Source of the DNA: an uncultured bacterium
Lineage (GTDB): Bacteria; Pseudomonadota; Gammaproteobacteria; Burkholderiales; Burkholderiaceae_E
Direction of reading: 5' to 3'
Length of the DNA: 64,000 nucleotides
Assembly: GCA_903907905.1 (NCBI GenBank)
Contig: CAIVPX010000120.1
Coordinates: forward strand, 62,001-126,000
Shown here one piece after another: positions 22,855 to 37,393 of the stretch. Both the position numbers and the translations under genes were made by a program. Below the pieces are notes generated by a model, which made no database searches, was not told the origin of the DNA, and saw only the letters and a list, made by a program, of their open reading frames with translations. Position 1 is the first letter of the stretch. Every line of letters starts with the position of its first letter.

Positions 22855-22868
22855 TTGTCGGTGGTCAA
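22855..22868. promoter_or_regulatory. Candidate FNR/FixK-type site (TTG-N8-CAA)
   Basis: TTGTCGGTGGTCAA, a half-matching FNR box with the outer TTG/CAA intact, in the 144-base divergent region between the nuclease and the CBS-domain gene, 91 bases before the CBS ATG. Individually weak; supported by similar sites elsewhere in this block. Confidence 0.35.
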
Positions 22869-22958
22869 CGCATATCCCACCAGTCCGGGGAAAATTTTCC
22901 TCTCATCCGAGCGCGACGCGTCCGCCGCGCCTGCGCGGGTTTCAATGGGGAGAAAGTC

Positions 22959-23411
22959 ATGATGGATGTCGGAACGATATGCTCTCGTGATGTGGTCACC
23001 TGTCGGGCCGATGACGACTTGCGCCATGTGTCAGAGCTGATGCGAATGCGCCATGTCGGTGCGGTGGTCGTGCTAGCCGCCAATGGCGTGTCTAGGAAGG
23101 TGGCGGGTGTGGTGACCGATCGCGATATCGTGATCGAAGTGGTCGCAACAGGACTCGATGCGCGGGCCATTACCGCAGGCGATATCGCTGGTAAGGTTCC
23201 TGTGACAGCACGTGAGCATGACAGCCTGCTCGACGCCATTCACCGGATGCGCAGTCGCGGTGTCAGGCGCTTGCCGGTGCTGGACATCCACGGCGAGTTG
23301 AAGGGCATCGTTACCCTGGATGACCTGCTCCACGCCCTGACCCACGAACTCTCGATGCTCGTTCGGGTGGCCGATCACCAGCCGGCTCAGGAGGCCCGAG
23401 CGCGGCAATAA
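22959..23411 (+). CDS. CBS-domain pair protein
   Basis: 150 residues consisting of two CBS motifs (about residues 8-65 and 72-130; GVVTDRDIVIEV, VLDIHGELKGIVTLDDLL). ATG 22959 follows GGGGAGA. Stand-alone CBS pairs bind adenine nucleotides and are commonly stress- or energy-responsive; the partner is unknown. The neighbouring Usp operon and FNR-like regulator support a low-oxygen or stress role. Confidence 0.88.
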   Translation: MMDVGTICSRDVVTCRADDDLRHVSELMRMRHVGAVVVLAANGVSRKVAGVVTDRDIVIEVVATGLDARAITAGDIAGKVPVTAREHDSLLDAIHRMRSRGVRRLPVLDIHGELKGIVTLDDLLHALTHELSMLVRVADHQPAQEARARQ

Positions 23412-23542
23412 CGGGTCGAGGCAGGTGTCGCAGATGAGCATTGACGGTGGGCGCGGATGCAGCGCACCCGCGCTTGCCCTTGGGGTGCCCTCAGAGGCCA
23501 GGGCCGTTCACCAGCATTGGGCGCGAAGCTTGAGGGCTTGGC

Positions 23543-23860
23543 CTAAGGCCTCATCATTCGTTTCAGCAGGCGCCAGACCCGCCACCCTGCCAGCAGTAGC
23601 CCCAGGCCACTGCGAATTCGTCGGCGGGTTCGCGGATTGGCCAGCAGGGCGCCGGCGATGGTCGCCAGGATGATCGTGAGGGCGATGGGCGGGCCAGGCT
23701 GAGGGGCGCCCGGGTACGAGGCGGCAGTGGGTTCACCCCGTTGCCTCGTGCTCGCGCGCAGACAGTTGAGCAGGGCGGATCGTTGGCGCTCGCATTCGCC
23801 CCTGAGCTCGCGGATTCGCGCGCCGCATGGTCCGCCCGCAGCCGTCTGGGGAAAGGTCAT
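23543..23860 (-). CDS. Small membrane protein, YqjK-like
   Basis: 105 residues: an N-terminal charged helical part, one hydrophobic helix (about residues 58-75), then a basic tail ending WRVWRLLKRMMRP. The arrangement resembles YqjK, and the gene overlaps the YqjE-like gene by four bases (ATGA) at the end of a yqjD-yqjE-like operon. Sequence similarity itself is weak, so the name rests mainly on position and layout. Confidence 0.65.
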   Translation of the reverse strand: MTFPQTAAGGPCGARIRELRGECERQRSALLNCLRASTRQRGEPTAASYPGAPQPGPPIALTIILATIAGALLANPRTRRRIRSGLGLLLAGWRVWRLLKRMMRP

Positions 23861-24333
23861 GGATGGGCAGCACTTGCAGGCGCTGCCGAGCGCTTGACAG
23901 GGTCTGCCGCCTGGCGACCAAGATCGGACGCCTCAGCGGCTGCGTACGCGGGATCGGCGCCACTCAGGGCGCATGCGTCGCGACGTAATTCGTCAACGCT
24001 CCCAGCAAAGGCCGGTGATGCCCGGATGATCCGCCGGGCTGCGACGATCAGCACGCCAGCCATCGCGGCATTGGCCAGCGCCAGCCCAAGCAGGGCGATG
24101 CCCCGCCGCGACTCTGGAAGACTCCAGAGCACCGCTCCGCAGACCATCACATCGGCGAGCAGGGCGCATCCCAAAGCGCCAGCGACGCAGGCAGCCCCGA
24201 GCGCGCGGGTGGTGACGAACTCGTCAAGCTCGGCCGCCACCAGAGCGAGACGGGCTCCGCTGACTTCAAGCAGCGTGGCGGCGAGGGACCGGGCCCGATC
24301 GGTCAGCCCCCTGACCCCGAGTGGCGCGAACAT
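23857..24333 (-). CDS. YqjE / phage-holin-like (Phage_holin_3_6) membrane protein
   Basis: 158 residues with two long hydrophobic helices (about residues 45-70 and 78-100) preceded by an amphipathic helix (RARSLAATLLEVSGARLALVAAE). This matches the YqjE/Phage_holin_3_6 layout, normally beside a DUF883 gene as here. The C-terminal 50 residues are Ala-rich and probably cytoplasmic. Role unknown; not a phage lysis protein despite the domain name. Confidence 0.75.
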   Translation of the reverse strand: MFAPLGVRGLTDRARSLAATLLEVSGARLALVAAELDEFVTTRALGAACVAGALGCALLADVMVCGAVLWSLPESRRGIALLGLALANAAMAGVLIVAARRIIRASPAFAGSVDELRRDACALSGADPAYAAAEASDLGRQAADPVKRSAAPASAAHP

Positions 24334-24365
24334 GAACGCGGTCGACTGCGGGGCCAGGTACGTGC

Positions 24366-24692
24366 CTATCGGCGCAGCAACATCGCGCCGAGCAACAGGC
24401 CGGCGCCTGCGGCGGCACCGATCGCCAGCCAGGGATGACCATGCACATACTCATTGGTCTGCTTCGCGGTTTGGCGTGCACGCTCGAGCAGCATCAGCTC
24501 ACCATCCCAAATCTGGCTCTTGGCCTGGCGAATGCTCGCTTCGAGGCGCTCGCGCATGGCTGCAACGCTCTCACCGCCCTGTTTCTGCGCGGCATGGAGG
24601 AGGTCCTCCGCATCCCTGACAAGCGCGCGCATGTCCTGCGAAAGGCGCTCGCGAGCGCCGGGGTTGCTTGAATTGATATCGAGCTTGTCCAT
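24366..24692 (-). CDS. YqjD/ElaB-family (DUF883) membrane-anchored protein
   Basis: 108 residues: an amphipathic helical region (LSQDMRALVRDAEDLLHAAQ) and a C-terminal glycine-rich membrane helix (HPWLAIGAAAGAGLLLGAMLL) ending in two arginines. E. coli YqjD and ElaB are stationary-phase inner-membrane proteins that bind ribosomes. It lies 21 bases after usp and before the YqjE-like gene. Confidence 0.9.
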   Translation of the reverse strand: MDKLDINSSNPGARERLSQDMRALVRDAEDLLHAAQKQGGESVAAMRERLEASIRQAKSQIWDGELMLLERARQTAKQTNEYVHGHPWLAIGAAAGAGLLLGAMLLRR

Positions 24693-24713
24693 GAAGGATC
24701 TCCGGATTGTCGT

Positions 24714-25157
24714 TCAGCGGAAGACGAGCACTGGAATGCTTGAATGCGTCAGCACTTTGTGCGTCTCGCTTCCAAGCACCAGAGCACTGATCCCGCGGCG
24801 TCCGTGAGACGCCATGAAGATCAGGTCGCAGGCCCGCCCACCCGCGACGTCGATGATGGCCTTCCACGGTTGGCCGTGGCGGATTGACACAATCTCGCAG
24901 GCAACGTCTGCACCCTTTGCCTTCTTCTCGGCGGCACCCAGAACCGTCTTGGCCGTTTCCTCGGTGGCCTTCATGAAATCGTTGAACGAAGATTGCGCCG
25001 CGGAGGGAAACTCGGCGAAGGCGTCGACAACATACTCGGGCATCACATACAGGAAACAGACCTTGGCGCCGGTCTCGCTGGCAAACGCAATGCCGCGGGT
25101 GACGGCTGTATCGGACAACTTCGACCCATCGGTGGGAAGCAGAAGGTGTTTGAACAT
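24714..25157 (-). CDS. Universal stress protein (UspA family)
   Basis: 147 residues. Begins MFKHLLLPTDGSKLSDTA and ends with the ATP-binding-type motif ASHGRRGISALVLGSETHKVLTHSSIPVLVFR. First gene of a minus-strand operon with DUF883, YqjE-like and YqjK-like genes. Two TTG-N8-CAA sites lie upstream, at 25235-25248 and 25416-25429, suggesting FNR/FixK-type control. Confidence 0.93.
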   Translation of the reverse strand: MFKHLLLPTDGSKLSDTAVTRGIAFASETGAKVCFLYVMPEYVVDAFAEFPSAAQSSFNDFMKATEETAKTVLGAAEKKAKGADVACEIVSIRHGQPWKAIIDVAGGRACDLIFMASHGRRGISALVLGSETHKVLTHSSIPVLVFR

Positions 25158-25234
25158 TTGAACGCTTTCCTCATGGCGGATAGGGGTAGTGGCAATCGCC
25201 AGCGTCGATGCTAGCGAGCCCGTGGTCGCCCGAC

Positions 25235-25248
25235 TTGATCCTGGGCAA
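25235..25248. promoter_or_regulatory. Candidate FNR/FixK-type site upstream of usp
   Basis: TTGATCCTGGGCAA matches eight of ten consensus bases of TTGAT-N4-ATCAA. It is 78 bases before the usp ATG, a distance compatible with a class II activator site. Confidence 0.45.
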
Positions 25249-25415
25249 GCTCGATTACCAATACCGCAGGCAGATTGCGCAGAGCCGTGCTCAGGTCTGT
25301 CCCGGGCTTCAAATCTGATGCCGCTGCCCTTCGGGCGCCTTTGCTTGAACGCGTCGATTACCTTGTGTCTGATCCGATCGAGTCATGCGACTTTTGCGGT
25401 CTCGGGTCCGCACGA

Positions 25416-25429
25416 TTGATTCATCACAA
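25416..25429. promoter_or_regulatory. Candidate FNR/FixK-type site, usp-fnr intergenic region
   Basis: TTGATTCATCACAA matches eight of ten consensus bases. It sits mid-way in the divergent region and could serve either gene. Confidence 0.4.
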
Positions 25430-25486
25430 CGCATTCAAAAACACAGATCAAAAAGGCCTCTGTTGCAAACCGTTACAGAGTGTTAT

Positions 25487-25500
25487 TTGACTGAAATCAA
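25487..25500. promoter_or_regulatory. Near-perfect FNR box upstream of the FNR-like gene
   Basis: TTGACTGAAATCAA matches nine of ten consensus bases (TTGAT-N4-ATCAA). A -10-like TACAGT starts 18 bases after its end, as expected for class II activation, which suggests autoregulation. Confidence 0.65.
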
Positions 25501-25572
25501 TAGCAGCAATCGCTTGAATACAGTGTGATGAACGCCTCCTCACCGAGGCCACTGTTCAACAGGGAGATGGAA

Positions 25573-26355
25573 GTGAACGACACCGTCATTCGAGCACAAG
25601 TTTCTGCACTGCAACCTTCGACCGCGCGACCGCTGTCACCCAGCGATGCGATGAGCCGCTATCCGAGCGGGCGCACGGCTATTCCGCTGCCGCCGGGTGT
25701 CGACATGTTGCTGTCGCGTGTGGGCGGCCAGCGCCGTCGGCTCAAGCGTGGAGACTACCTTTATCGTTACGGGGCCGAGTTCCATGCGCTCTTCGGCGTA
25801 CATGCAGGGTCGTTCAAGACAGTGCTGCTGACCGAGGATGGTCGTGAGCAGGTCACGGGGTTCCACATGGCGGGCGAAGTGCTCGGCCTGGACGGGCTTG
25901 GCTCAGAGGTCTACAACGGCGACGCGATTGCGCTCGAGGATGGCGAGGTCATCGAGATTGCCCGTGAGGCGCTTGACTCACTGGTCCGTCATGAGCCGCT
26001 TCTGCAACGCGAACTCTTCAAGATGCTGGCCAACGAGATTCAGCGCGAGCGCGCCTTGATGGTGCTGCTGGGCTCGATGCGTGCCGAGGAGCGTCTGGCC
26101 GTATTTCTGCTCAATCTGTCCCAGAGGCTGGCTGCGCGCGGTTATTCGGCCACCCGATTCATTCTGCGCATGACGCGGGAGGAAATCGGCAGTCTGCTGG
26201 GGCTCAAGCTTGAAACGGTCAGCCGGATTCTGTCGAGGTTCCAGGCTGAAAAGATGATTCGCGTGCACAACCGCGAAATCGATCTCTACGAAATCGATCG
26301 GCTGCGGTCGGTGATCGGGCGCAACGAGGCACGCCGCGAAGAAGTGGCGGCCTGA
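25573..26355 (+). CDS. CRP/FNR-family regulator without cysteines (FixK-like)
   Basis: About 260 residues: cyclic-nucleotide-binding-type beta roll (GDYLYRYGAEFHALFGVHAGSFKTVL, EVLGLDGLGSE), dimer helix, and a C-terminal HTH with EEIGSLLGLKLETVSRILSRFQ, whose E-SR pattern is the FNR DNA-recognition signature. No cysteine occurs anywhere, so an oxygen-sensing 4Fe-4S cluster is impossible; FixK proteins share this feature. Start uncertain: GGGAG at 25562-25566 suits GTG 25573, with ATG 25567 or ATG 25528 as alternatives. Its 3' end overlaps the convergent kinase gene by about 70 bases. Confidence 0.88.
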   Translation: MNDTVIRAQVSALQPSTARPLSPSDAMSRYPSGRTAIPLPPGVDMLLSRVGGQRRRLKRGDYLYRYGAEFHALFGVHAGSFKTVLLTEDGREQVTGFHMAGEVLGLDGLGSEVYNGDAIALEDGEVIEIAREALDSLVRHEPLLQRELFKMLANEIQRERALMVLLGSMRAEERLAVFLLNLSQRLAARGYSATRFILRMTREEIGSLLGLKLETVSRILSRFQAEKMIRVHNREIDLYEIDRLRSVIGRNEARREEVAA

Positions 26356-28427
26356 GGGCGCGTGTCGAGCGCTCGCCTGATCATCCGGGCGAGTTGCTCG
26401 AATCGGTAGGGCTTGCCAAGCAGTTCAAGGCCCCGCGAGATCTCGCTGTCGAGCGGCAGATCATGAGGCGAGTAGCCTGATGTGAAGAGCACACCGATGT
26501 CGGGGCACTGTTGCACGGCTTCTCGTGCCAGTTCGACGCCGTTGGTGGGCCCCTTGAGCACCACGTCGGTGAAAATCAGGTCGGGTGTGGTGGGCTGGGC
26601 GAGCAGGGCCCGTGCATGGTGGGCATCGCCCGATTCCAGCACACTGTAGCCCAGCCTTGTCAGGAACTGGGTTGCCACCTTGCGAACCTCCTCGTCATCC
26701 TCGACGACCAGGATGGTTTCGCTGCCGCCCTCGGCTGCGCCTATCGGTGCGATGCGGGGCGTATCGCTGAGGGCCCCGACTGTCGGCAGGTAAAGTCGGA
26801 TGGTGGTTCCCACGCGCGGCGTGCTTGCCACATCGATATGACCGCCGGTCTGCCTGACAAATCCGTACACGAGACTGAGCCCCAGGCCACTGCCCTTGCC
26901 ATGCTCCTTGGTGGTGAAGAAGGGCTCGAACGCACGCGCGAGCACCTCGGGTGTCATACCGAGGCCGTTATCCTGGACCGCCAGCACGACGTATGTCCCC
27001 GGCTCGAGTTCGCCTCCACGCATGACACGCTGCTTGTCCAGATGCAGCATGCTCGCCTCCAGGCGGAGTTGGCCGCCGCCCGGCATGGCATCGCGCGCAT
27101 TGACGGCAAGATTGAGCATGGCCGTATCCAGCATGGCGGGATCGGCTCGGGCAGCGGCCAGGTCCGGGGGACAGTGCGTCGAAATCTGGATATTCGGCCC
27201 CAGGGTTCGAGCCAGGATTTCCGCCAAGGACTCGAGCCAGGCCTTGATCTCGATGGCTCGGGGCTGAAGGGTCTGTCGCCGGGCAAAGGCGAGCAACTTT
27301 CGGGTGAGGTCTGCGCCCCGGCTCGCGGCGCGGAGCGCTGATCGGATGAGTGGGCGCTCGGCGGCTTCGGCCTCGGCGCGTTCCTCGAGCATCTGCAGGT
27401 TGCCTGATACGACGGTCAACAGATTGTTGAAGTCGTGGGCGACGCCACCTGTCAGTTGGCCCAGCGCCTCGAGCCGCTGAGACTGAAACAGCTTTTCCTC
27501 GGCAAGCCTTCGCTGATAGGCAGCGCCCAGCGTATTGGCCAGGGCCTTCAGAAAGTTGCTGTCCTCGCGGGTGAAGGTTCGGGCCTGGGTGTGGCAGGCC
27601 AGAAGCAGGGCGGGGCGCTCGGTGCTGCCCGGAATCAGGCAGGCGATGGCGCTTTGCAGACCACTCGCCTGCATCGCGTTCCTGAGCAAGGCGGGGGCGT
27701 GATCGAGGTCTTCGATGAGCAGCGCCATGTCGTTCGCAGTGTCCGACGCTTCGGCAAGCGCGGGCATCAGGGCGGACAAGACCCTTGCGGTGCCGCTTGC
27801 GAAATCTTCATGCCCGGACTCGGCGGCGGGCGGGCCACCCGCCTCGGGCTGACGGGCGACCGCGGCACGACTGGCGCCGAGGTGGGTGCTGATCAACTCG
27901 CAGGCGTGACGCGCCAGATTGGGCGACTCGGGCGCGTTCAGCGCGAGCCGGCCGAACTCGGCGATGGCATCGGCACGCCCTGCACGGGCGATGGCTTGCT
28001 GGGCGCGCCTGAATTCGCTCATGTTGCGGATGTTGGCGCAAACGAGTTGCATCGCGCCCACCTTGAGCGGGCTCAGACTGATTTCAACCGGGATCTCGCT
28101 ACCGTCGCGGTGCTGCGCGAGTAATGTGGTGCCGATGCCCATGGGACGCGGGCTGGGCGAACCGGCGTACTGTTGCCGGTGCTGCACATGGACTTCGCGC
28201 AGGCGAGTGGGCACGAGTTCATCCACGCGCATGCGCTGCAAGGCCTCGCCGCTGTAACCAAACAGGGTCGAGCACTGGCCATTGGCGAGCAGGATGCGTC
28301 CTTGCGCGTCGGCGACGAGCATGGCGTCGGCCGCTGTTGAGAAAATCTGTTCGAATAATTCGGGCAAGGCCGCGGTGGGCAGCGAGGTTCCGGGCGCATC
28401 GCCTTGATTGCGGCTGGGCGGTTTCAA
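26286..28427 (-). CDS. Hybrid sensor histidine kinase (PAS-GAF-HisKA-HATPase-REC)
   Basis: 713 residues, no membrane helix. PAS (about residues 20-145), GAF-like region (about 160-310), H-box GGVAHDFNNLL with His331, N-box NLAVNARDAMPGG, G-boxes, and a C-terminal receiver (ILVVEDDEEV, phospho-acceptor in LIFTDVV). The PAS sequence LREVHVQHRQQY aligns with the FixL heme-His region (His80 in place of the proximal His). It starts with TTG at 28427, overlapping the stop of the upstream response regulator. Its 3' end runs about 70 bases antisense into the FNR-like gene. Confidence 0.9.
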   Translation of the reverse strand: MKPPSRNQGDAPGTSLPTAALPELFEQIFSTAADAMLVADAQGRILLANGQCSTLFGYSGEALQRMRVDELVPTRLREVHVQHRQQYAGSPSPRPMGIGTTLLAQHRDGSEIPVEISLSPLKVGAMQLVCANIRNMSEFRRAQQAIARAGRADAIAEFGRLALNAPESPNLARHACELISTHLGASRAAVARQPEAGGPPAAESGHEDFASGTARVLSALMPALAEASDTANDMALLIEDLDHAPALLRNAMQASGLQSAIACLIPGSTERPALLLACHTQARTFTREDSNFLKALANTLGAAYQRRLAEEKLFQSQRLEALGQLTGGVAHDFNNLLTVVSGNLQMLEERAEAEAAERPLIRSALRAASRGADLTRKLLAFARRQTLQPRAIEIKAWLESLAEILARTLGPNIQISTHCPPDLAAARADPAMLDTAMLNLAVNARDAMPGGGQLRLEASMLHLDKQRVMRGGELEPGTYVVLAVQDNGLGMTPEVLARAFEPFFTTKEHGKGSGLGLSLVYGFVRQTGGHIDVASTPRVGTTIRLYLPTVGALSDTPRIAPIGAAEGGSETILVVEDDEEVRKVATQFLTRLGYSVLESGDAHHARALLAQPTTPDLIFTDVVLKGPTNGVELAREAVQQCPDIGVLFTSGYSPHDLPLDSEISRGLELLGKPYRFEQLARMIRRALDTRPQAATSSRRASLRPITDRSRSIS

Positions 28428-29131
28428 GAGGGCCTGACCTTCGCCGAAAACAGGTACCCGGCGCCACGAACCGACTTGATCAAGATGGGTCGGGCGGGAT
28501 CGATCTCGATTTTCTTTCGCAAGCGACCGACCTGGACATCAATTGCCCGGTCAAAGGGACCCGCATCCCGGTGGTGAAGTTCGTTCATGAGATCGTCGCG
28601 GCTGAGCACCTTGCCGGGCTGTCGAACCAAAGCGGCAAGCAGATCGAATTCGCCGCTGGTGAGCATCAGCAGTTGGCCCTGGGGGTTGGTCAGCGAGCGA
28701 GCTGCCAGGTCGAGTTGCCAGCCTTCGAATTCGAAATGCTGGCCCGCCTTGGGCTCGGGGGCGTTGCCGGTTCGGCGCCGCAGCACCGAACGGATTCGCG
28801 CAAGCAGTTCGCGCAGATCGACCGGCTTCGAGACGTAGTCATCGGCGCCGAGTTCGAGTCCGACGATCCGGTCAACCGCTTGGCCGAACCCGGTGATGAT
28901 GATGATGCCGATATCGCTGACTGCCCGAAGCTCGCGTGCCAGGGTGAGTCCGTCTTCGCCCGGCAGGCGTTGATCGAGCAGGACGAGTTCGAAGGACTGA
29001 AGGGATAGCTGCTCGCGCATGGCACGCCCGTCGGCCACGCCGACCACCGGATAGCCGAAGCCGCTCAGATAATTGCTGAAGAGCTCGCGGATGTCTTCGT
29101 CATCGTCAACGACAAGGATCCGTTCGGCCAT
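28424..29131 (-). CDS. OmpR-family response regulator
   Basis: 235 residues from ATG 29131 (a TTG three codons earlier is possible). Receiver domain: acidic pocket VVDDDED, phosphorylation site in LLDQRLPG, Lys in YVSKPVD. C-terminal winged helix (LTSGEFDLLAALVRQPGKVLSRDDL ... VGRLRKKIE ... VRGAGYLF) shown here in pieces. The gene lies between two hybrid kinases and overlaps the start of the downstream one, so at least the PAS kinase is its likely partner. Confidence 0.93.
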   Translation of the reverse strand: MAERILVVDDDEDIRELFSNYLSGFGYPVVGVADGRAMREQLSLQSFELVLLDQRLPGEDGLTLARELRAVSDIGIIIITGFGQAVDRIVGLELGADDYVSKPVDLRELLARIRSVLRRRTGNAPEPKAGQHFEFEGWQLDLAARSLTNPQGQLLMLTSGEFDLLAALVRQPGKVLSRDDLMNELHHRDAGPFDRAIDVQVGRLRKKIEIDPARPILIKSVRGAGYLFSAKVRPS

Positions 29132-29178
29132 GAGGCGCAAGAAGAAGCTGGGAGGTCATCCCTGATGGCTGAATGGTA

Positions 29179-30981
29179 TCAGCCCCCGGAAGCCGGCGGC
29201 TTCGGATATTCGAGTGCTTGCAGCGCGTGCTGCATGGCCTGAGCGGTGAGCGGCTTTTGAAGCAGCGGCACCTGGTTGTCGGCGGCGCGCCGGGACAGTT
29301 CGGCCGAGGTGTCACCGGAGATCATCAGGCAGGCGATGCCAGGGTGCAGCAGGCGAGCAGTCTGGACGAGCATGAGACCGTGGGTCGCGTCATCCAGTTG
29401 GTGGTCGGTGATCATCGCCTGAAAGCGGGACGCGCCGCGGAGCAGGGCGACGGCTGCGGAGGCGCTTGCTGCGTGCTCGATGCGCCATCCGCGAGCGTGC
29501 AGCCATTGGGTGAGGGCGCACGCCACCTCGGGGTCGTCCTCGACGAGCAGGAGGCGACCGGTTGGCGCATGGCCTTGCGCACCGGCCTCGCTTGACGGGG
29601 GGAGGTGCGTGTGATCGACAGTGCGCGCCATGGGCAGTCGCAGAAAGAAGCGACTGCCCACGTGCGGGTCGGAGTGAACCGAGATTGCACCATCCAGCAG
29701 GGCTGCGAGGCGTCTGACCATGGCCAGCCCGATCCCCAGGCCCTTGTTGCGGTCCCGCCCCGGGTTGGCCACCTGAAAATGGTCCTCGAAGATCTGTTCG
29801 AGGTGCTCGGCCGAGATGCCGATGCCCGTGTCACTTACGCACAGTTCGCAGCCCGCAGACCCGTCGGCGCTGAGCGTGATCGAGCCCTGGTCGGTGTAGC
29901 GCAAGGCGTTGTCAAGCAGGTTACGCAGAATGCGCGTCAACAGCACCCGGTCGCTGAACACTTCGACCTCAAGGGGGCGGACAATCAGGGTGAGGCCCTT
30001 GGCTGCGGTACGGGGCTCGAACTCGACCTTGAGGGCCTCGAAAGTCGGGCCGAGCGGGACCCATTCGGGGTGAGCCACCACCAGGCCCGCCTCGAGCCTG
30101 GAGAGGTCGAGCAGATTGGACAGCAGGTCGTTCAGCGCCTCGGTTGAGCGGTCGATACCGTTGATCAGGGGCGAAAGCGCGGCATCGTGGCAGCGCTCGC
30201 GCAGAAGCCCGGTCAGCAGCCCAAGTGAGGTAGCCGGTTGTCGCAGATCGTGGCTGGCGGCTGCGAGAAATTGTGAGGACGCACGGGCGGCCCGCCTGGC
30301 CGCTTCGCTTTCTGCCGCGAGTCTTCGCGCCAAGTGCCTGATCCGTTGACGTCCCCGGAGTGACTCGCCCAGGGTCGCGCTCAGCACGATCGACAGGCGC
30401 GCCAGCACCAGCCCGTAGAGCACGACGCCGCCCGCGAGCAGCAGTCCCGCGTGGGTGGGCGACAGGCTCCAGGCGACGGCGACCTGAGCCAGGATGGCGA
30501 GTCCGTGCAGCAGCGCATGTCTGGGAAAGGCGGCGTGCATCATGACGCTCCCAGCGAGCCAGGCAAAGATCAGGTTGGTGAGTGCCAGTCGATCGGCGTG
30601 TGGGACGGACGGAAAGAACAGGCTCGCACACGCACCGATCAGTAGCCCGCAAAGGCCCGCCGTCAGATTGAACAGGCTGGCCAGCTGGGACGTGTTCCAC
30701 CCGCGGGGTCGTGACAGAAAGCGGGCGCCTGTCGCGGCTCGGAGCACTTGCGTGGCGCTGAGCAGACAGGCCCAGACCAGCAGGTGCGCGACGGGTACCT
30801 GATCGTGCAGCAAACCGACCACGATCGCGATCAGCGGCAGACCGATGACAGGCTCGAGCAGCGCCTGCCGGGCCTGCAGCCGGCAGCGCTCGAGCAGAAG
30901 CCTGGGGGCGAGGGCAGACGGGGCCACGGCGGGCATTCGGGGCGAGGGGGCGCGGCGTGGATCGACGGTGGCGGGTGGCAT
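29179..30981 (-). CDS. Membrane hybrid sensor histidine kinase with C-terminal receiver
   Basis: 600 residues. Five to six hydrophobic helices (about residues 42-205) act as the sensor region; no periplasmic domain is evident. Then HisKA with AAASHDLRQP (His244), HATPase (NLLDNALRYT, DTGIGIS, GLGIGLAMVRRLA) and a REC domain (LLLVEDDPEVA; acceptor in MITDHQLDD). ASHDLRQP kinases with a trailing receiver often feed a downstream DNA-binding regulator, here the OmpR-type gene 47 bases later. Confidence 0.9.
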   Translation of the reverse strand: MPPATVDPRRAPSPRMPAVAPSALAPRLLLERCRLQARQALLEPVIGLPLIAIVVGLLHDQVPVAHLLVWACLLSATQVLRAATGARFLSRPRGWNTSQLASLFNLTAGLCGLLIGACASLFFPSVPHADRLALTNLIFAWLAGSVMMHAAFPRHALLHGLAILAQVAVAWSLSPTHAGLLLAGGVVLYGLVLARLSIVLSATLGESLRGRQRIRHLARRLAAESEAARRAARASSQFLAAASHDLRQPATSLGLLTGLLRERCHDAALSPLINGIDRSTEALNDLLSNLLDLSRLEAGLVVAHPEWVPLGPTFEALKVEFEPRTAAKGLTLIVRPLEVEVFSDRVLLTRILRNLLDNALRYTDQGSITLSADGSAGCELCVSDTGIGISAEHLEQIFEDHFQVANPGRDRNKGLGIGLAMVRRLAALLDGAISVHSDPHVGSRFFLRLPMARTVDHTHLPPSSEAGAQGHAPTGRLLLVEDDPEVACALTQWLHARGWRIEHAASASAAVALLRGASRFQAMITDHQLDDATHGLMLVQTARLLHPGIACLMISGDTSAELSRRAADNQVPLLQKPLTAQAMQHALQALEYPKPPASGG

Positions 30982-31065
30982 CTGGGCGGCCTGCGGCAGG
31001 GCAACCGAGTGAGTGTAGGCGCGGTGATTCCCACGCCCGTCGTCTTGCCGGCCGAGGCAACCGCT

Positions 31066-32898
31066 CTAGTCCGCCGGTTGAGGGGCGACCGCTGGCGATC
31101 CCGTGTTGGCGTCCGCGCGAGCGCAGCGACTCGCCCACAGAACCGCATCGGCGCGGCCTGTCGGGCGATAGACGCTCAAGCCCTTGACCCGTCGGCGCCA
31201 GGCCGCGATGACGAGTTCGTCGAGCTCAGTCCGTGAATAGTCGGGTCCGATCTGGACGGTCTTGCTGATGGCGCCATCGATGAAAGGCTGAACCGCCGCA
31301 AGCATGGCGAGATGAGACTCGGGGCTGATCTGCAGCGTATCCCGCCAGGCGGGTGGCGTCGGCGGCCCGCCTGGATTCGTCAGCCGATACAGTCGCCACG
31401 CGTAGTCCTCGACCTCCTCGCCCACCAGTCGCTCATCGGCGACTCGTCGTCGTCGGTGGAAGCGCCCTGAGAACGCCGGTTCGATGCCGCTTGACACATT
31501 ACCGCCAAAGGCAATCGAGATCGTTCCTGCCGGTGCGATCGACAGCAGATGTGAGTTGCGCAGTCCGTGCAGCCGGATGCTCTCGCGCAGGTGCGCAGGC
31601 AGTCGGGATGCGGCGTGCTCGGGGCAGAGAAACGGTTCGGCTTCAAAGAGCGGAAAGGCCCCCCGCTCGCGGGCGAGTTGCGACGACGCCTCATACGCCC
31701 AGTCCCGCAGCGATCGCGCCACGCTGGCCGCCAACTCGCGCGCCTGCTCACTGTCGTAGGGGAGTCCCATCATGCAGAGCGCGTCGCCGAGTCCGGTGAA
31801 GCCGAGCCCCGTGCGCCGCTTGAGGCGGGCCTCGACGGCCTGCTGCGGCAATGGCCAATGGGTCAGGTCGATCACATTGTCCAGCGCCCTGACGGCAAGC
31901 GGGACGATCCGTCGCAGGGCGCTGAAGTCGAATCTTGACTTGGGGGTGAATGGCGCCTCGACCAATCGGGCCAGATTGATGCTGCCCAGATCGCAGGCGC
32001 CGTAGTCGGGCAGGTACTGCTCGCCACAGGGGTTGCACGCGCGCAGCGATTCGATCCAGGAGAGATTGTTGTCGCGGTTCACCTGATCGATGAAGATCAG
32101 CCCGGGGCTGCCGCAGTTCCAGGCGGCGTCGAGCAGTTGCGTCCAGAGTGTTCGTGCCGGCAGTCGGGCATGGATGAACTGCCCGCCTGAGGCGATACCC
32201 AGGGCGATGCCACCAGTCGGTGGCATCGGGTGGACGAGTTCCGTCAGGGTGTCGTCCTGAACACGCCTCATGAACCCGTCGGTGATGGCGACCGAGGTGT
32301 TGAAGGTGCTCAGCCCGCTCGGGCGCTTGGCGTCGATGAAGGCTTCGATATCGGGGTGGTCCACGCTCAGAACGGCCATCTGGGCGCCCCGTCTTTGCCC
32401 GTTTGCACTCAAGATCCGGCACTCGCGATCGAATCGTGCGATCACGCTGAGCGGATCGCAAGGGGGGCTGTTTGCCCCTTCAGGCTGCACGTTCGTCGGG
32501 GGCAGCGAAGACAGATCCAGGCCGATGCCGCCCCCCAGCGACATCGTTCGCAGCCCCTCGCTGAGTGCCTCGCGAACGCCCGGCCGGTCGTGCTCGTCGC
32601 GCCCGCCCCACTGACCTGCCACGGGCTGGACGAAGCAGTTGATCAGCGTAGCGGGGTGCCCGGTGCCCGCATTGGCGTGGATGCGCCCGCCGGGGATGAA
32701 ACCTGAGCGCATCGCCGCGACGAATCGGGCTGACCACAGGGCGCGTTGGTCGGCTGCCTCGACCGAGGCCAGCGCGCGGGCCACGCGTGTCTGGATGGCG
32801 CGCACGCTGCGCTCGCCGGGGGCGGCGTAGCGTTCAAGCAGTATCTCTCGGCAAAAGGCTTGGTCGGGTGGGGGGGGCGATTTCGCTCGTGTCTTCAT
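31066..32898 (-). CDS. nrdJ: Adenosylcobalamin-dependent (class II) ribonucleotide reductase
   Basis: 610 residues from ATG 32898 (GAGGAG ten bases upstream; ATG 32907 also possible). Visible class II signatures: GGRIHANAGTGHPATLINCFV, GGGIGLDLSSLPP, the catalytic loop ACNPCGEQYLPDYGACDLGSIN and GSGG-like late segments. This B12 enzyme makes deoxynucleotides with or without oxygen, which suits a low-oxygen block. The C-terminal Cys pair or zinc tail found in many class II enzymes is not evident. Divergent from ftsH with a TTG-N8-CAA site between. Confidence 0.92.
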   Translation of the reverse strand: MKTRAKSPPPPDQAFCREILLERYAAPGERSVRAIQTRVARALASVEAADQRALWSARFVAAMRSGFIPGGRIHANAGTGHPATLINCFVQPVAGQWGGRDEHDRPGVREALSEGLRTMSLGGGIGLDLSSLPPTNVQPEGANSPPCDPLSVIARFDRECRILSANGQRRGAQMAVLSVDHPDIEAFIDAKRPSGLSTFNTSVAITDGFMRRVQDDTLTELVHPMPPTGGIALGIASGGQFIHARLPARTLWTQLLDAAWNCGSPGLIFIDQVNRDNNLSWIESLRACNPCGEQYLPDYGACDLGSINLARLVEAPFTPKSRFDFSALRRIVPLAVRALDNVIDLTHWPLPQQAVEARLKRRTGLGFTGLGDALCMMGLPYDSEQARELAASVARSLRDWAYEASSQLARERGAFPLFEAEPFLCPEHAASRLPAHLRESIRLHGLRNSHLLSIAPAGTISIAFGGNVSSGIEPAFSGRFHRRRRVADERLVGEEVEDYAWRLYRLTNPGGPPTPPAWRDTLQISPESHLAMLAAVQPFIDGAISKTVQIGPDYSRTELDELVIAAWRRRVKGLSVYRPTGRADAVLWASRCARADANTGSPAVAPQPAD

Positions 32899-32944
32899 CG
32901 ACGTCATGCTCCTCGTTTGTCTGGCCAGCGACTGGTGAATCGGC

Positions 32945-32958
32945 TTGTGCGGGGTCAA
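32945..32958. promoter_or_regulatory. Candidate FNR/FixK-type site between nrdJ and the second ftsH
   Basis: TTGTGCGGGGTCAA has the TTG-N8-CAA core, 47 bases before the nrdJ ATG and 62 before the ftsH TTG. It is the only such site in this 122-base divergent region. Confidence 0.4.
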
Positions 32959-33020
32959 GCCGGTCCGTCGGGCGAAGGCCACAATCGGTTCCCCGTGAAA
33001 TCGATTCGAGTCTCGCAAAA

Positions 33021-34904
33021 TTGTCCTCACGCGGCCTTGCCTTCTGGTTGCTTCTGATTCTGCTTGCGGTGTTGCTGCTTGATTCACCGCAGCTCTGGCA
33101 TTCGGCGAAGACGATCGACTACAGCGAATTCCTCGACCAGTTGGCGGCCGGCAATGTTCGCGATCTGGATGTCGGCGACAAGCTGATTCGGGGTGAACTG
33201 GCGCAGGCCTCAGGTGAGGGCAGTTCGCGCTTTGTCACGAAACGCGTGGAGCCTGCGCTGGTCACCGTACTTCAAGGGCGGGGCGTGCCGTATCGCGCGG
33301 TTCCGGACGGCGTCGTGCCGGCGGCGCTGCTCGGCTGGTTGTTGCCCCTGGTACTGATGGTGCTGGTCTGGCAGTTCATTGCAAAGCGCAGCGCAATGGG
33401 GTCCGGCATGGGCGCGGGCCTGATGTCGATTGGCCGCAGCAAGGCCAGGGTGTACATGGAAACGGGGATTCGCATCAGCTTTGATGATGTGGCCGGGGTG
33501 GACGAGGCCAAGGAGGAACTGCGCGAGGTGGTTGGTTTTCTGAAGGACCCCAAGCGCCATGGTCGGCTGGGAGCGCGCGTGCCGCACGGCATTCTGCTCG
33601 TGGGGCCTCCCGGAACCGGCAAGACGCTGCTGGCCCGTGCGGTCGCCGGCGAGGCGGCGGTGCCATTTTTTTCGATCAACGGCTCCGAGTTCGTCGAGAT
33701 GTTCGTGGGGGTGGGCGCGGCGCGTGTGCGCGACCTCTTCGAGCAGGCGAGACAGAAGGCGCCGGCCATCGTGTTCATCGACGAGATCGATGCCCTGGGT
33801 CGCGCACGCGGCGCCCTGGGGCTGGGCGGGCATGACGAAAAGGAGCAGACCCTCAATCAGTTGCTCGCCGAACTGGATGGATTCGATCCGGCCTCGGGAA
33901 TCGTGCTGCTGGCTGCGACCAATCGGCCCGAGATTCTCGACCCCGCCTTGCTTCGGGCCGGGCGATTTGACCGGCAGGTGCTGGTGGACCGTCCCGATCG
34001 CATCGGGCGTGTGCAGATCCTGAAGGTGCACCTTCGGAAGGTCACCCTCGAGCAGGGCGTGGATCCGGACGAGATCGCGGCACTGACGCCGGGGTTCAGC
34101 GGGGCCGACCTGGCCAATCTGGTGAACGAGGCGGCGCTTCTGGCGACCCGCCGCGACCATGCGGCGGTGACGCTGGATGATGTCACCGGCGCCCTGGAGA
34201 GGATTGTCGCGGGGCTTGAAAAGCGCAACCGCTTGCTCAATCCGGCCGAGCGCAAGACCGTGGCCTTCCATGAGATGGGCCATGCACTGGTCGCCATGTC
34301 GGTGCCTTCGGGCGAAACCGTGCACAAGGTTTCGATCATTCCACGAGGGGTCGGCGCCTTGGGCTACACGATTCAACGGCCCACCGAGGACCGCTTCCTC
34401 ATGACTCGTGCCGAGTTGCGCGACAAGATGACCGTGCTGCTGGGTGGGCGCGCAGCGGAGCAGTTGTGCCTGGGCGAGATCTCCACGGGCGCGGCAGACG
34501 ACCTCACCAAGGCGACCCGCATCGCGCGCAGCATGGTGATGCAATACGGCATGGATCCGGTCCTGGGGGCACAGGCCTTTGATGCGCCGGATCTGTCCGG
34601 GCTGTCCTTTGCCCTGCCTCAGGAGTCGCCGGCCCATCCGTCGGATGCGACCTTCAGGGAGATCGACTGCGCGGTGCGGGCACTCATCGATCAGGCCTTG
34701 ATCCGGAGCGGCCAGATTCTTGCCGCGCAACGCGGTCGCCTGGAGCGTGGCGCGCAGCGCCTTCTACGAAGCGAAACGCTCTCCCATGCGGACCTGGTGT
34801 CAATCTTCGCCGAGCCGGCGGACCCTGATCCGGCCACGATTGATCCGCGGGCTCAAGCGCTGCTCGCAGGCGACAGGCGACACGATGTCGCCCCTCAGGG
34901 CTGA
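33021..34904 (+). CDS. ftsH: ATP-dependent zinc metalloprotease FtsH, second-type paralogue
   Basis: About 627 residues from TTG 33021, the only sensible start with the frame kept out of nrdJ; the frame is open further upstream. TM1 about 6-22, short periplasmic domain, TM2 about 104-122, AAA domain with Walker A GPPGTGKT (195-202), Walker B VFIDEID (251-257), second region of homology, and the zinc motif HEMGH (417-421) instead of the canonical HEAGH. Degrades membrane and soluble proteins. It lies next to the Lon-like gene rather than rlmE-folP, so it is probably not the housekeeping FtsH. Confidence 0.92.
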
Positions 34905-34915
34905 TCAGGAACAGG

Positions 34916-37393
34916 ATGCGGCTGGATCCCGACCAACTCTCGGCCCGATGCGACCCGGCGCGCTTGAGCTTCGGGGACACGCGTGAACTGGCGCAGCTTG
35001 CCGATGCGCCCGGGCAGCAGCAGGCCATCGAATCGATCCGTTTTGCAGTGGGGGTGCCGCACGGCGGTTTCAACCTCTTTGTGTTGGGGGCGCCGGACAC
35101 CGGCAAGCTCGAGGCCAGCACCGGTCTGCTGCGTCAGATCGCTCAGGCGGCACGCACGCCCGGCGATTGGTGCTATCTGAATAATTTCGAGGATCCGGCC
35201 CGACCGCTTTGCATCGAGTTGCCGGCCGGGCGCGGGCCCCGCCTGCGCGATCAGTTGGCCCAGTTCATTGACGAGTTACGCACCGCGATTCCGGCAGTGT
35301 TCGAGAGCGAGGAATACCACGCTCGGGTGGCGAAGATCGACAGCGGCTTTGCTGCACTTCAGGAGAAGACCTTCGGCGACCTGATTGCAGAGGCGCGCGA
35401 GAGCGGCGTAGCCCTGTGGCGCACGCCGACCGGATTCTCCTTTGCACCGGCCCGTGACGGCGAGGTGATGCCACCCGAGGAGTTCGACAAGCTTGCGGAC
35501 GCCGATAAGGCCAGAGTCGGCGAGGCGATCGAGATGCTGCAGGAGCGCCTCGAGCGCCTGCTGCGCCAGGTGGTGGCCTGGCGGCGTGCGCGAAGACAGG
35601 CCTTGAAGGCGCTCAACCAGGAGGTCACGATGCTGGCGGTCGGCTCGCTGGTCGATGACCTGATCCGCGAGTTCCTGCCGTGGCCCGCCGTGGTCGCGCA
35701 TCTGGTGGCCCTTCAGACCGACGTGGTGAACAACGCCGAACTGTTCCAGCAGTCGGGCGAATCGGCGGGTGCGGAGATCGCGGCCCTGCAGGCGGAGGCG
35801 CTGCACCCGCTGAGGCGATACCAGGTGAACCTGCTGGTGGCGCGCACCCCAGGGGAGGGGGCGCCTGTGGTGATCGAGGACAACCCGACGTTTCCCAATC
35901 TGATCGGGCGGGTGGAGTATCTGGCGCGATTCGGCGCGCTCGTCACCGATTTTGCGATGATCAAGCCGGGCGCGCTGCACCGTGCTGCGGGGGGGTATCT
36001 GCTGCTCGACGCCCGGCGCGTGCTGATGCAGGCCTTCGCCTGGGAGACGCTTAAGCGCGTGCTGGTGACGCGCGAGATTCGAATCGAGTCGATTGGGCAG
36101 CTTTACGGGCTCGTCAGCACGGTGACGCTTGAGCCGCAGCCGGTTCCGTTCAACGCCAAGGTGGTGATGTTCGGCGATCGAAGCCTCTACATGCTTTTGC
36201 AGGCACTCGACCCCGATTTCGCCGAACTCTTCAAGATCGCCCCGGAGTTCGGCGATGACATGCCGCGAACCACGGACTCGGTCGATGCCTACGCGCGGTG
36301 GATCGCGACGATCGTGGCGCAGGCCGGGCTGAGGCCCTTCGATCCGAGCGCCGTGGCACGCGTGGTCGATTGGAGCTCGCGCCAGGCCGAGGACACGGGC
36401 AAGCTCAGCCTGGCAGTGAGGCGAATCCGCGATCTGCTGATCGAGTCCGAGCAATGGGCGTTGCGTCAGGCGCGAGAGGTGGTGTCGGCGGCCGATGTGA
36501 CCCAGGCCCTGGCTGCCCGGAGGGCGCGCAGCGATGAGTTGCGTCGGCGGATGCACGAGCGGATCACCGAGCAGACGGTACTGATCGATACGCGGGGCGC
36601 CAAAGTGGGGCAGGTCAACGGCCTTGCGGTGATTTCCCTGGGCGAACTCAGCTTCGGGCTTCCGACCCGCATCACGGCCACTACCCGGCTCGGTGACGGT
36701 ACGGTCATTGACATCCAGCGCGAGGCCCAGCTGGGTGGCGCATTTCACACCAAAGGCGTAATGATTCTCTCGTCCTATCTGGCGTCGCGCTTCAGTGCGC
36801 GCCAACCGCTGTCGCTGGCCGCCTCACTGGTATTCGAGCAGACCTATGCCGAGGTGGACGGGGATTCGGCCTCGCTTGCCGAACTCTGTGCCCTGCTGTC
36901 CTCGCTCTCGGGGCTGGCCCTCAGGCAGGGCTTTGCCGTGACCGGGTCGGTCAACCAGCGCGGCGAGGTTCAGGCGATCGGCGGGGTCAACGAGAAGGTT
37001 GAGGGCTTCTTCGATATCTGCCGGGCGCGGGAGCCTGACGCGAGTCGGTTGCGGGCGTCGCCGCTTGGTTCGCCTGACGGGCGCCGCGAGGCCCCCAAGG
37101 CGCCAGAAACCGGCCTCCAGGGCGTCCTGATCCCAGCCTCTAACCGGCGCCATCTGATGCTGCGTGACGAGGTGGTCGAGGCCGTACGTGCCGGGCATTT
37201 CTCGGTGATAGCGGTCAGCACGGTGGACGAGGCGATGGCGTGGCTGAGCTCGGACGAATCCACGCGTTCGCTCGACCGGGACGATCTTGGCCGGCTGATC
37301 GATGAAAAAGTGCGGGCGCGCCTGAGCGAATTTGCGCGCCTGCGCCAGCGTTTTGGCGGCATGGCACCGGAGCGGCGCAGCCGTCGCCATTGA
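34916..37393 (+). CDS. Lon-like AAA-family protease (AAA_32 / LonB-like type)
   Basis: 825 residues. N-terminal AAA_32-type region, a middle helical region, and a C-terminal Lon proteolytic domain. The Ser-Lys dyad is visible: Ser651 in GDSAS and Lys694 in NEKVEGFF, 43 residues apart as in Lon. The Walker A-like segment at 58-65 reads GAPDTGKL, with Leu where Ser or Thr is usual. Starts 11 bases after ftsH and is probably co-transcribed. Family members are poorly characterised; a stress-protein quality-control role is inferred from context. Confidence 0.88.
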   Translation: MRLDPDQLSARCDPARLSFGDTRELAQLADAPGQQQAIESIRFAVGVPHGGFNLFVLGAPDTGKLEASTGLLRQIAQAARTPGDWCYLNNFEDPARPLCIELPAGRGPRLRDQLAQFIDELRTAIPAVFESEEYHARVAKIDSGFAALQEKTFGDLIAEARESGVALWRTPTGFSFAPARDGEVMPPEEFDKLADADKARVGEAIEMLQERLERLLRQVVAWRRARRQALKALNQEVTMLAVGSLVDDLIREFLPWPAVVAHLVALQTDVVNNAELFQQSGESAGAEIAALQAEALHPLRRYQVNLLVARTPGEGAPVVIEDNPTFPNLIGRVEYLARFGALVTDFAMIKPGALHRAAGGYLLLDARRVLMQAFAWETLKRVLVTREIRIESIGQLYGLVSTVTLEPQPVPFNAKVVMFGDRSLYMLLQALDPDFAELFKIAPEFGDDMPRTTDSVDAYARWIATIVAQAGLRPFDPSAVARVVDWSSRQAEDTGKLSLAVRRIRDLLIESEQWALRQAREVVSAADVTQALAARRARSDELRRRMHERITEQTVLIDTRGAKVGQVNGLAVISLGELSFGLPTRITATTRLGDGTVIDIQREAQLGGAFHTKGVMILSSYLASRFSARQPLSLAASLVFEQTYAEVDGDSASLAELCALLSSLSGLALRQGFAVTGSVNQRGEVQAIGGVNEKVEGFFDICRAREPDASRLRASPLGSPDGRREAPKAPETGLQGVLIPASNRRHLMLRDEVVEAVRAGHFSVIAVSTVDEAMAWLSSDESTRSLDRDDLGRLIDEKVRARLSEFARLRQRFGGMAPERRSRRH

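Follow-up and report, generated by a model that had tools for sequence, protein, structure and literature searches.

A stretch of 64,000 nucleotides from an uncultured member of the Burkholderiaceae_E (contig CAIVPX010000120.1 of assembly GCA_903907905.1, positions 62,001 to 126,000; hereafter the window) contains five TTG-N8-CAA sites in the three divergent promoter regions of a block of stress genes. Which protein acts at these sites, and how does it receive its signal? The block includes a gene for an FNR-like protein. FNR itself is the classic example of a protein that senses oxygen directly. By contrast, the FNR-like protein of the window lacks the cysteines of the FNR cluster, and its gene has a K-box-like element in its promoter and stands beside the genes of a hybrid kinase (HK1) and a response regulator (RR) that resemble the hFixL–FxkR pair of rhizobia. 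It is probable, from these features, that the FNR-like protein has become FixK-like, with the boxes as its operators and with sensing handed to the hFixL–FxkR-like pair.

Conservation and promoter geometry of the TTG-N8-CAA sites

The sequence-only reading had described the five sites as marking a probable FNR/FixK-type regulon. All five were found where it placed them, and their clustering was borne out: the three divergent regions hold five sites in 684 bp, versus a mean of 0.23 in simulated sequence. None of 20,000 first-order Markov simulations reached five, a figure that is nominal because the three regions were chosen with the sites already in view. Across the whole window, the loose pattern matched 13 times against 9.17 expected, and 15 of 100 shuffles were equally high. 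In the 4.43-Mb genome from which the window comes, it matched 577 times versus 470 for a reversed control. The strict form, TTGAY-N4-RTCAA, matched nine times versus three for the control in that genome, and its only exact match in the window is the site at 25487. The genome-wide scan that the sequence-only reading had suggested thus yielded mild enrichment in the bacterium's own genome. We tried these counts as evidence and set them aside: those of the loose pattern did not settle the matter, and several of the nine strict sites fall within open frames. The loose pattern also occurs inside the coding frames of ftsH (33141-33154) and lon (35603-35616). Alone, it is a weak signal, and it is convincing because of a comparison across 20 syntenic loci.

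To make this comparison, relatives were found with the FNR-like protein as query, and the best 80 of at least 586 confirmed stretches were used. The 20 loci, from 20 genomes, comprise the window, eight stretches whose FNR-like proteins are 63-82% identical to that of the window (L023-L030, of which L029 comes from the cultured Zeimonas arvi), and 11 stretches from a survey of the family (L163-L173); four belong to the window's genus and 16 to a sister genus. The 19 relatives share the order and orientation of the Usp (universal stress protein), FNR-like, HK1 and RR genes. Where present, or where the contigs reach, the surroundings include rnr, trmH, SNase, CBS, DUF883, nrdJ, ftsH and lon genes. 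We scored 63 upstream regions (nine CBS, 20 Usp, 20 FNR-like and 14 nrdJ) for 1,024 patterns, comprising the 64 trinucleotides as palindromes with gaps of 0-15, and ranked those present in at least eight regions. TTG-N8-CAA ranked first by observed over expected, occurring in 34 of the 63 regions against 1.3 expected from 60 Markov simulations. The runners-up occurred in 13-14 regions, and some of them resemble parts of the K-box. In 86 control intergenic pieces from the same loci (28,178 bp), TTG-N8-CAA did not occur. Five of the 20 regions upstream of the FNR-like gene contain the pattern; the counts for the CBS, Usp and nrdJ genes are given in Table 1.

The sites upstream of the CBS and Usp genes also have a regular geometry. 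Read toward the gene, a −10-like hexamer starts 22-24 bases past 20 of the 23 boxes (14 of 14 Usp and six of nine CBS), and all other offsets combined yielded one. This spacing places the box centre near −41.5, which is the class-II activator position for FNR. The CBS and Usp boxes are accordingly laid out as predicted FNR class-II sites. Overall, the five sites are very likely real operators of the stress-survival block, as predicted from their conservation.

For the CBS and Usp promoters, footprint and −10 spacing support the FNR/FixK-type regulon of the sequence-only reading, which had also counted the regulator gene itself and nrdJ among the genes served. For the regulator gene, the evidence points the same way within the window's genus, all four loci of which keep the boxes, but not in the sister genus, where one of 16 loci has a box; direct autoregulation as a feature of the whole clade was rejected on that count. 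As a target, nrdJ was not established: the site is weakly kept and, in the window, a −10-like hexamer lies toward ftsH and none toward nrdJ. The arrangement in relatives is irregular.

An FNR-like regulator without cluster cysteines

The best solved relatives of the window's regulator are FNR (148 bits) and then FixK2 (78 bits). The protein contains no cysteine and therefore cannot hold the FNR iron–sulphur cluster; the central FNR cysteine aligns to an isoleucine. It has nevertheless retained the FNR-type recognition helix, LETVSR, and so combines the traits of FixK, a Crp/Fnr protein with this helix and without the cluster motif. The motif is absent from all 20 proteins of the clade, which carry 0-2 cysteines over the 70 residues that precede the core (a pattern match in L024/L146 lies 284 residues upstream). 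By contrast, 70 of 72 canonical proteins (L031-L102) have it at the expected place, and the other two have the motif with a core that our script did not place. Of the 31 family genomes from other genera that had a match, ten were read, and all ten have the motif.

In a phylogenetic tree, the 20 proteins form one clade (support 100/100) among canonical betaproteobacterial FNRs. When rhizobial FixKs were included, a branch with 98/95 support grouped the clade with 17 of the 20 canonical FNRs to the exclusion of FixK; this tree had four FixK rows and drew a long-branch warning from the tool. In it, the window's protein falls outside the alphaproteobacterial FixK clade. These data suggest that the protein descends from betaproteobacterial FNR and lost its [4Fe-4S] cysteines while keeping the LETVSR helix. 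It should work like FixK, yet it is not of the FixK clade. The FNR/FixK idea of the sequence-only reading holds, with the correction that the protein is not expected to sense oxygen as FNR does.

The cluster-less protein appears to be the only close FNR of its lineage. Twenty of 23 genomes surveyed from the two genera carry it. At E≤1e-30, those 23 gave no further match apart from one bin with an additional, partial copy of this type. That bin, G045 of the window's genus, has regulator copies on contigs C132 and C191, of which one is partial with a stop; it could represent mixed strains. Among 300 genomes of the order, three have the FNR-like protein at E≤1e-72, all from the two genera. In eight relative genomes, no second close FNR was found, the next matches having at most 37% identity. 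The window's own genome encodes three Crp-family proteins above the Pfam cut-offs, of which only the FNR-like one has an FNR-type helix; three further matches are weaker. According to an AlphaFold model of modest quality (mean pLDDT, the per-residue confidence, of 64.9; pTM, the predicted template-modelling score, of 0.40), residues 1-40 are of very low confidence. The protein has an N-terminal extension of its own that is poorly conserved across the clade.

K-box and kinase–regulator pair beside the regulator gene

The hFixL–FxkR–FixK cascade and its K-box have been described in rhizobia, where, according to two reports, the FxkR operator is GTTACA-N4-GTTACA (PMC7888657, PMC4999443). At all 20 loci, the region before the regulator gene contains this sequence with at most one mismatch, versus one of 72 canonical fnr loci (450 bp upstream, within two mismatches). 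Eleven of the 12 repeat positions are conserved in 18 or more of the 20 loci, and the last position varies. After the K-box, the GTT of a third repeat continues the same 10-bp period. A TANANT hexamer follows 57 bases past the first K-box base, its T, A and final T occurring at 20 of 20 loci and its inner A at 19. Genome-wide searches for exact GTTACA-N4-GTTAC found it in 11 of 13 clade genomes, in each case including the regulator's promoter, and in none of 12 genomes from other genera of the family. GTTACA is replaced by GTTGCA in the window's genome and in G045. Exact K-boxes also lie upstream of three rhizobial fixK-like genes (the first copy of R. brockwellii, Rhizobium WSM4643 and S. medicae); two of these three have the spacer AACT, which some clade members share. 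The second R. brockwellii copy has a K-box only at two mismatches. A further strongly conserved element of the 20 loci is GCCATCG-like and spans +31 to +37 relative to where the K-box begins (window 25493-25499); in the window's genus, it coincides in part with the right half of the FNR box.

The K-box and the HK1 and RR genes, in the same intergenic region and next door, respectively, are an addition to the sequence-only reading. Both genes adjoin the FNR-like gene at all 20 loci. Neither was detected at E≤1e-15 in the flanks, of varying length, of 72 canonical fnr loci. HK1 was likewise absent from nine canonical loci within the family (L174-L182), two of which had a weak RR match at 34-37%. 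RR shares 49% and 51% identity with two FxkR-type regulators from rhizobia, the former being the R. brockwellii regulator encoded beside fixK, whose C-terminal DNA-binding part is similar to that of RR; identity to the Variovorax regulators is 54%. The kinase–receiver part of HK1 is 44-46% identical to three rhizobial hFixL-type kinases. Its PAS domain is nearest to that of a multi-sensor kinase and then to FixL. In FixL-type PAS domains, the haem-ligand histidine and a distal arginine are important. The histidine aligned with the haem ligand is retained at 20 of 20 loci.

A scheme can be proposed in which binding, phosphotransfer, direction of regulation and signal are all predictions. HK1 would phosphorylate RR, the presumed trigger being low oxygen or some related respiratory cue. 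RR would bind the 10-bp direct repeats of the K-box and activate the FNR-like gene. In turn, the TTG-N8-CAA boxes near −41.5 would be bound by the FNR-like protein, and the CBS and Usp genes, perhaps also ftsH, would become active. Action of the protein on its own promoter is possible in the window's genus, where boxes adjoining the K-box may have a modulating or repressing role instead of an activating one. The signal of HK1 may be oxygen, redox state or nitric oxide.

Alternatives, relation to known systems and neighbouring genes

We also examined the boxes more widely. In most of 74 family genomes, strict-box counts exceeded those of the reversed control, with or without the FNR-like protein; per-genome excess is not specific to this protein and was dropped as evidence. 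In G068 of the sister genus, picked non-randomly for the clearest counts (28 strict boxes versus none in the control), we scanned neighbours of 27 of the 28 boxes, though not every neighbour (L186-L213). Among them are a gene with a nosZ propeller next to apbE, a cytochrome cd1 gene, an anaerobic ribonucleotide reductase, an oxidoreductase of the pyruvate:ferredoxin type, a dihaem cytochrome c peroxidase, a rubrerythrin and an Rrf2 regulator. Many of the other neighbours have routine catabolic or transport roles or are unassigned. G068, whose only close FNR is without the cluster motif, has strict FNR boxes by genes of denitrification and anaerobic metabolism. Other Crp/Fnr proteins of G068 could use the same boxes.

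Several observations weigh against the proposed FixK-like role. Strict boxes are just mildly enriched in the window's own genome, as noted above, and family genomes without the FNR-like protein also show an excess (e.g. 44 versus 4 in G048). The Usp box is absent from six of 16 sister-genus loci, and the CBS gene was found at just nine of the 20 loci. Moreover, the 20 loci are kin, so that their counts are non-independent events, and the relatives are mostly metagenome bins. Boxes before the FNR-like gene are missing from 15 of the 16 sister-genus loci, and the spacing from box to −10 before this gene is 19 in the window's genus, not 22-24; self-activation is therefore doubtful. Finally, the PAS domain of HK1 has a replacement for the distal arginine that the aligned rhizobial hFixL kinases have, and HK1 is therefore no more than a possible haem-based oxygen sensor.

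Three other explanations were weighed. It is very improbable that the sites cluster by chance, as a loose palindrome of six bases might do in promoter DNA: the non-significant count across the window and the modest genome-wide excess fit this explanation, but recurrence in homologous regions, absence from 28 kb of control intergenic DNA and the fixed −10 spacing do not. Alternatively, the boxes might be bound by another Crp/Fnr protein, of the CRP or DNR type, the FNR-like gene being incidental. Two more Crp/Fnr genes lie above the Pfam cut-offs in the own genome and weak matches occur in relatives. Moreover, DNR proteins control nirS/nosZ-type genes in other bacteria, and strict boxes in G068 lie beside nirS-like and nosZ-like genes. 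However, only the FNR-like protein among the three of the own genome has LETVSR, and its gene sits within the very block whose promoters bear the boxes. We consider this explanation unlikely.

Slightly less unlikely is that the FNR-like protein senses directly, through another cofactor or its variable N-terminus, and that the target of the kinase pair lies elsewhere. Haem or other ligands can be used by Crp/Fnr proteins, and the window's protein has an N-terminal extension of its own. However, this stretch is poorly conserved and its first 40 residues are modelled with very low confidence, and the K-box is in the promoter at every one of the 20 loci.

The FixK-like reading implies a particular history. 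We rather favour a second, independent origin of a FixK: a betaproteobacterial FNR would have shed its cluster and been placed under an hFixL–FxkR-type phosphorelay via a K-box, with sensing moved to the kinase and the target boxes kept, in at least one member next to genes for denitrification and anaerobic ribonucleotide reductase. A narrow search of the open literature found no precedent for this combination of a cluster-less FNR, a K-box and an hFixL–FxkR-like pair. A lineage whose sole close FNR is cluster-less while FNR boxes persist in its promoters would be a natural case of sensor relocation, making the origin of FixK-type cascades directly testable. If so, the hFixL–FxkR–K-box module extends from rhizobia to non-rhizobial betaproteobacteria.

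The locus shares with the cascade of R. leguminosarum and R. etli a hybrid kinase, an RR of 49-51% identity, a K-box before a Crp/Fnr gene, a Crp/Fnr protein without the cluster motif and target boxes of the TTGAT-N4-ATCAA type. It differs in that the window's protein lies outside the FixK clade (54% identity to canonical FNR, 27-31% to four FixKs), HK1 carries a GAF domain and is without the distal PAS arginine, and the predicted targets are stress and protease genes rather than fixNOQP. With canonical betaproteobacterial FNR, the protein shares descent, family, recognition helix and box type, and it differs in lacking the cluster cysteines and in its link to a kinase, a regulator and a K-box. 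A cluster of R. brockwellii (L215), reached via plasmid searches, contains ccoNOQP, a fixK-like gene, an hFixL-like gene, a second fixK-like gene and a regulator gene, the names fixK and fxkR being assigned in this analysis. It resembles the cluster reported from R. leguminosarum 3841 (PMC7888657).

Table 1. Coordinates of the predicted boxes, promoter elements and genes of the stress block in the window.
Feature	Position	Strand	Remarks
TTG-N8-CAA box upstream of CBS gene	22855..22868	+	strong; 9/9 loci having CBS; −10-like GAAAAT 22890-22895
CBS-domain pair protein	22959..23411	+	Pfam CBS 3.5e-25
DUF883 protein, downstream of Usp	24366..24692	−	
Universal stress protein	24714..25157	−	Pfam Usp 6e-29
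Class-II-type box of Usp promoter	25235..25248	−	strong; 14/20 loci; −10-like TAGCAT 25213-25208; hexamer at 22-24 nt in 14/14
Middle box, 71 bp upstream of proximal box	25416..25429	+	kept in four loci of window's genus
K-box-like direct repeat GTTGCA-AACC-GTTACA, FxkR-type operator	25462..25477	+	third repeat GTTATT 25482-25487
Strict FNR/FixK box TTGACTGAAATCAA, proximal in regulator's promoter	25487..25500	+	kept in four loci of window's genus
Predicted −10 TACAGT of FNR-like gene	25519..25524	+	57 nt past first K-box base
Cysteine-free FNR-like regulator	25573..26355	+	start inferred; alternatives GTG 25525, ATG 25567
HK1, hybrid kinase PAS-GAF-HisKA-HATPase-receiver, hFixL-like	26286..28427	−	
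RR, OmpR-type response regulator, FxkR-like	28424..29140	−	
Second hybrid kinase	29179..30981	−	present in only some relatives
Ribonucleotide reductase large chain, nrdJ-like	31066..32898	−	name from sequence-only reading
TTG-N8-CAA box, nrdJ/ftsH interval	32945..32958	+	weaker; 6/14 nrdJ upstream regions; −10-like CACAAT 32980-32985 faces ftsH
FtsH-type protease	33021..34904	+	start inferred
LonB/LonC-like protease	34916..37393	+	

The second hybrid kinase, between RR and nrdJ, occurs in the window's genus and some relatives and was not found in others; a role for it was set aside, many loci being without it. In gene content, the block may be likened to the lxa low-oxygen locus of Burkholderia cenocepacia, reportedly a Usp-rich block for low-oxygen survival. 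Plasmid modules of Variovorax (L214 and L217) likewise combine an FxkR-like regulator and an hFixL-like hybrid kinase, convergent with a Crp/Fnr gene without CxxC. They differ in forming a separate branch, with a Crp/Fnr protein 33-35% identical to that of the window, and no K-box within two mismatches was found in the L214 and L217 stretches examined. These modules (L214 4238-7858, L217 4250-7877) lie near BON and phbB genes and may represent a second wiring of the same kind.

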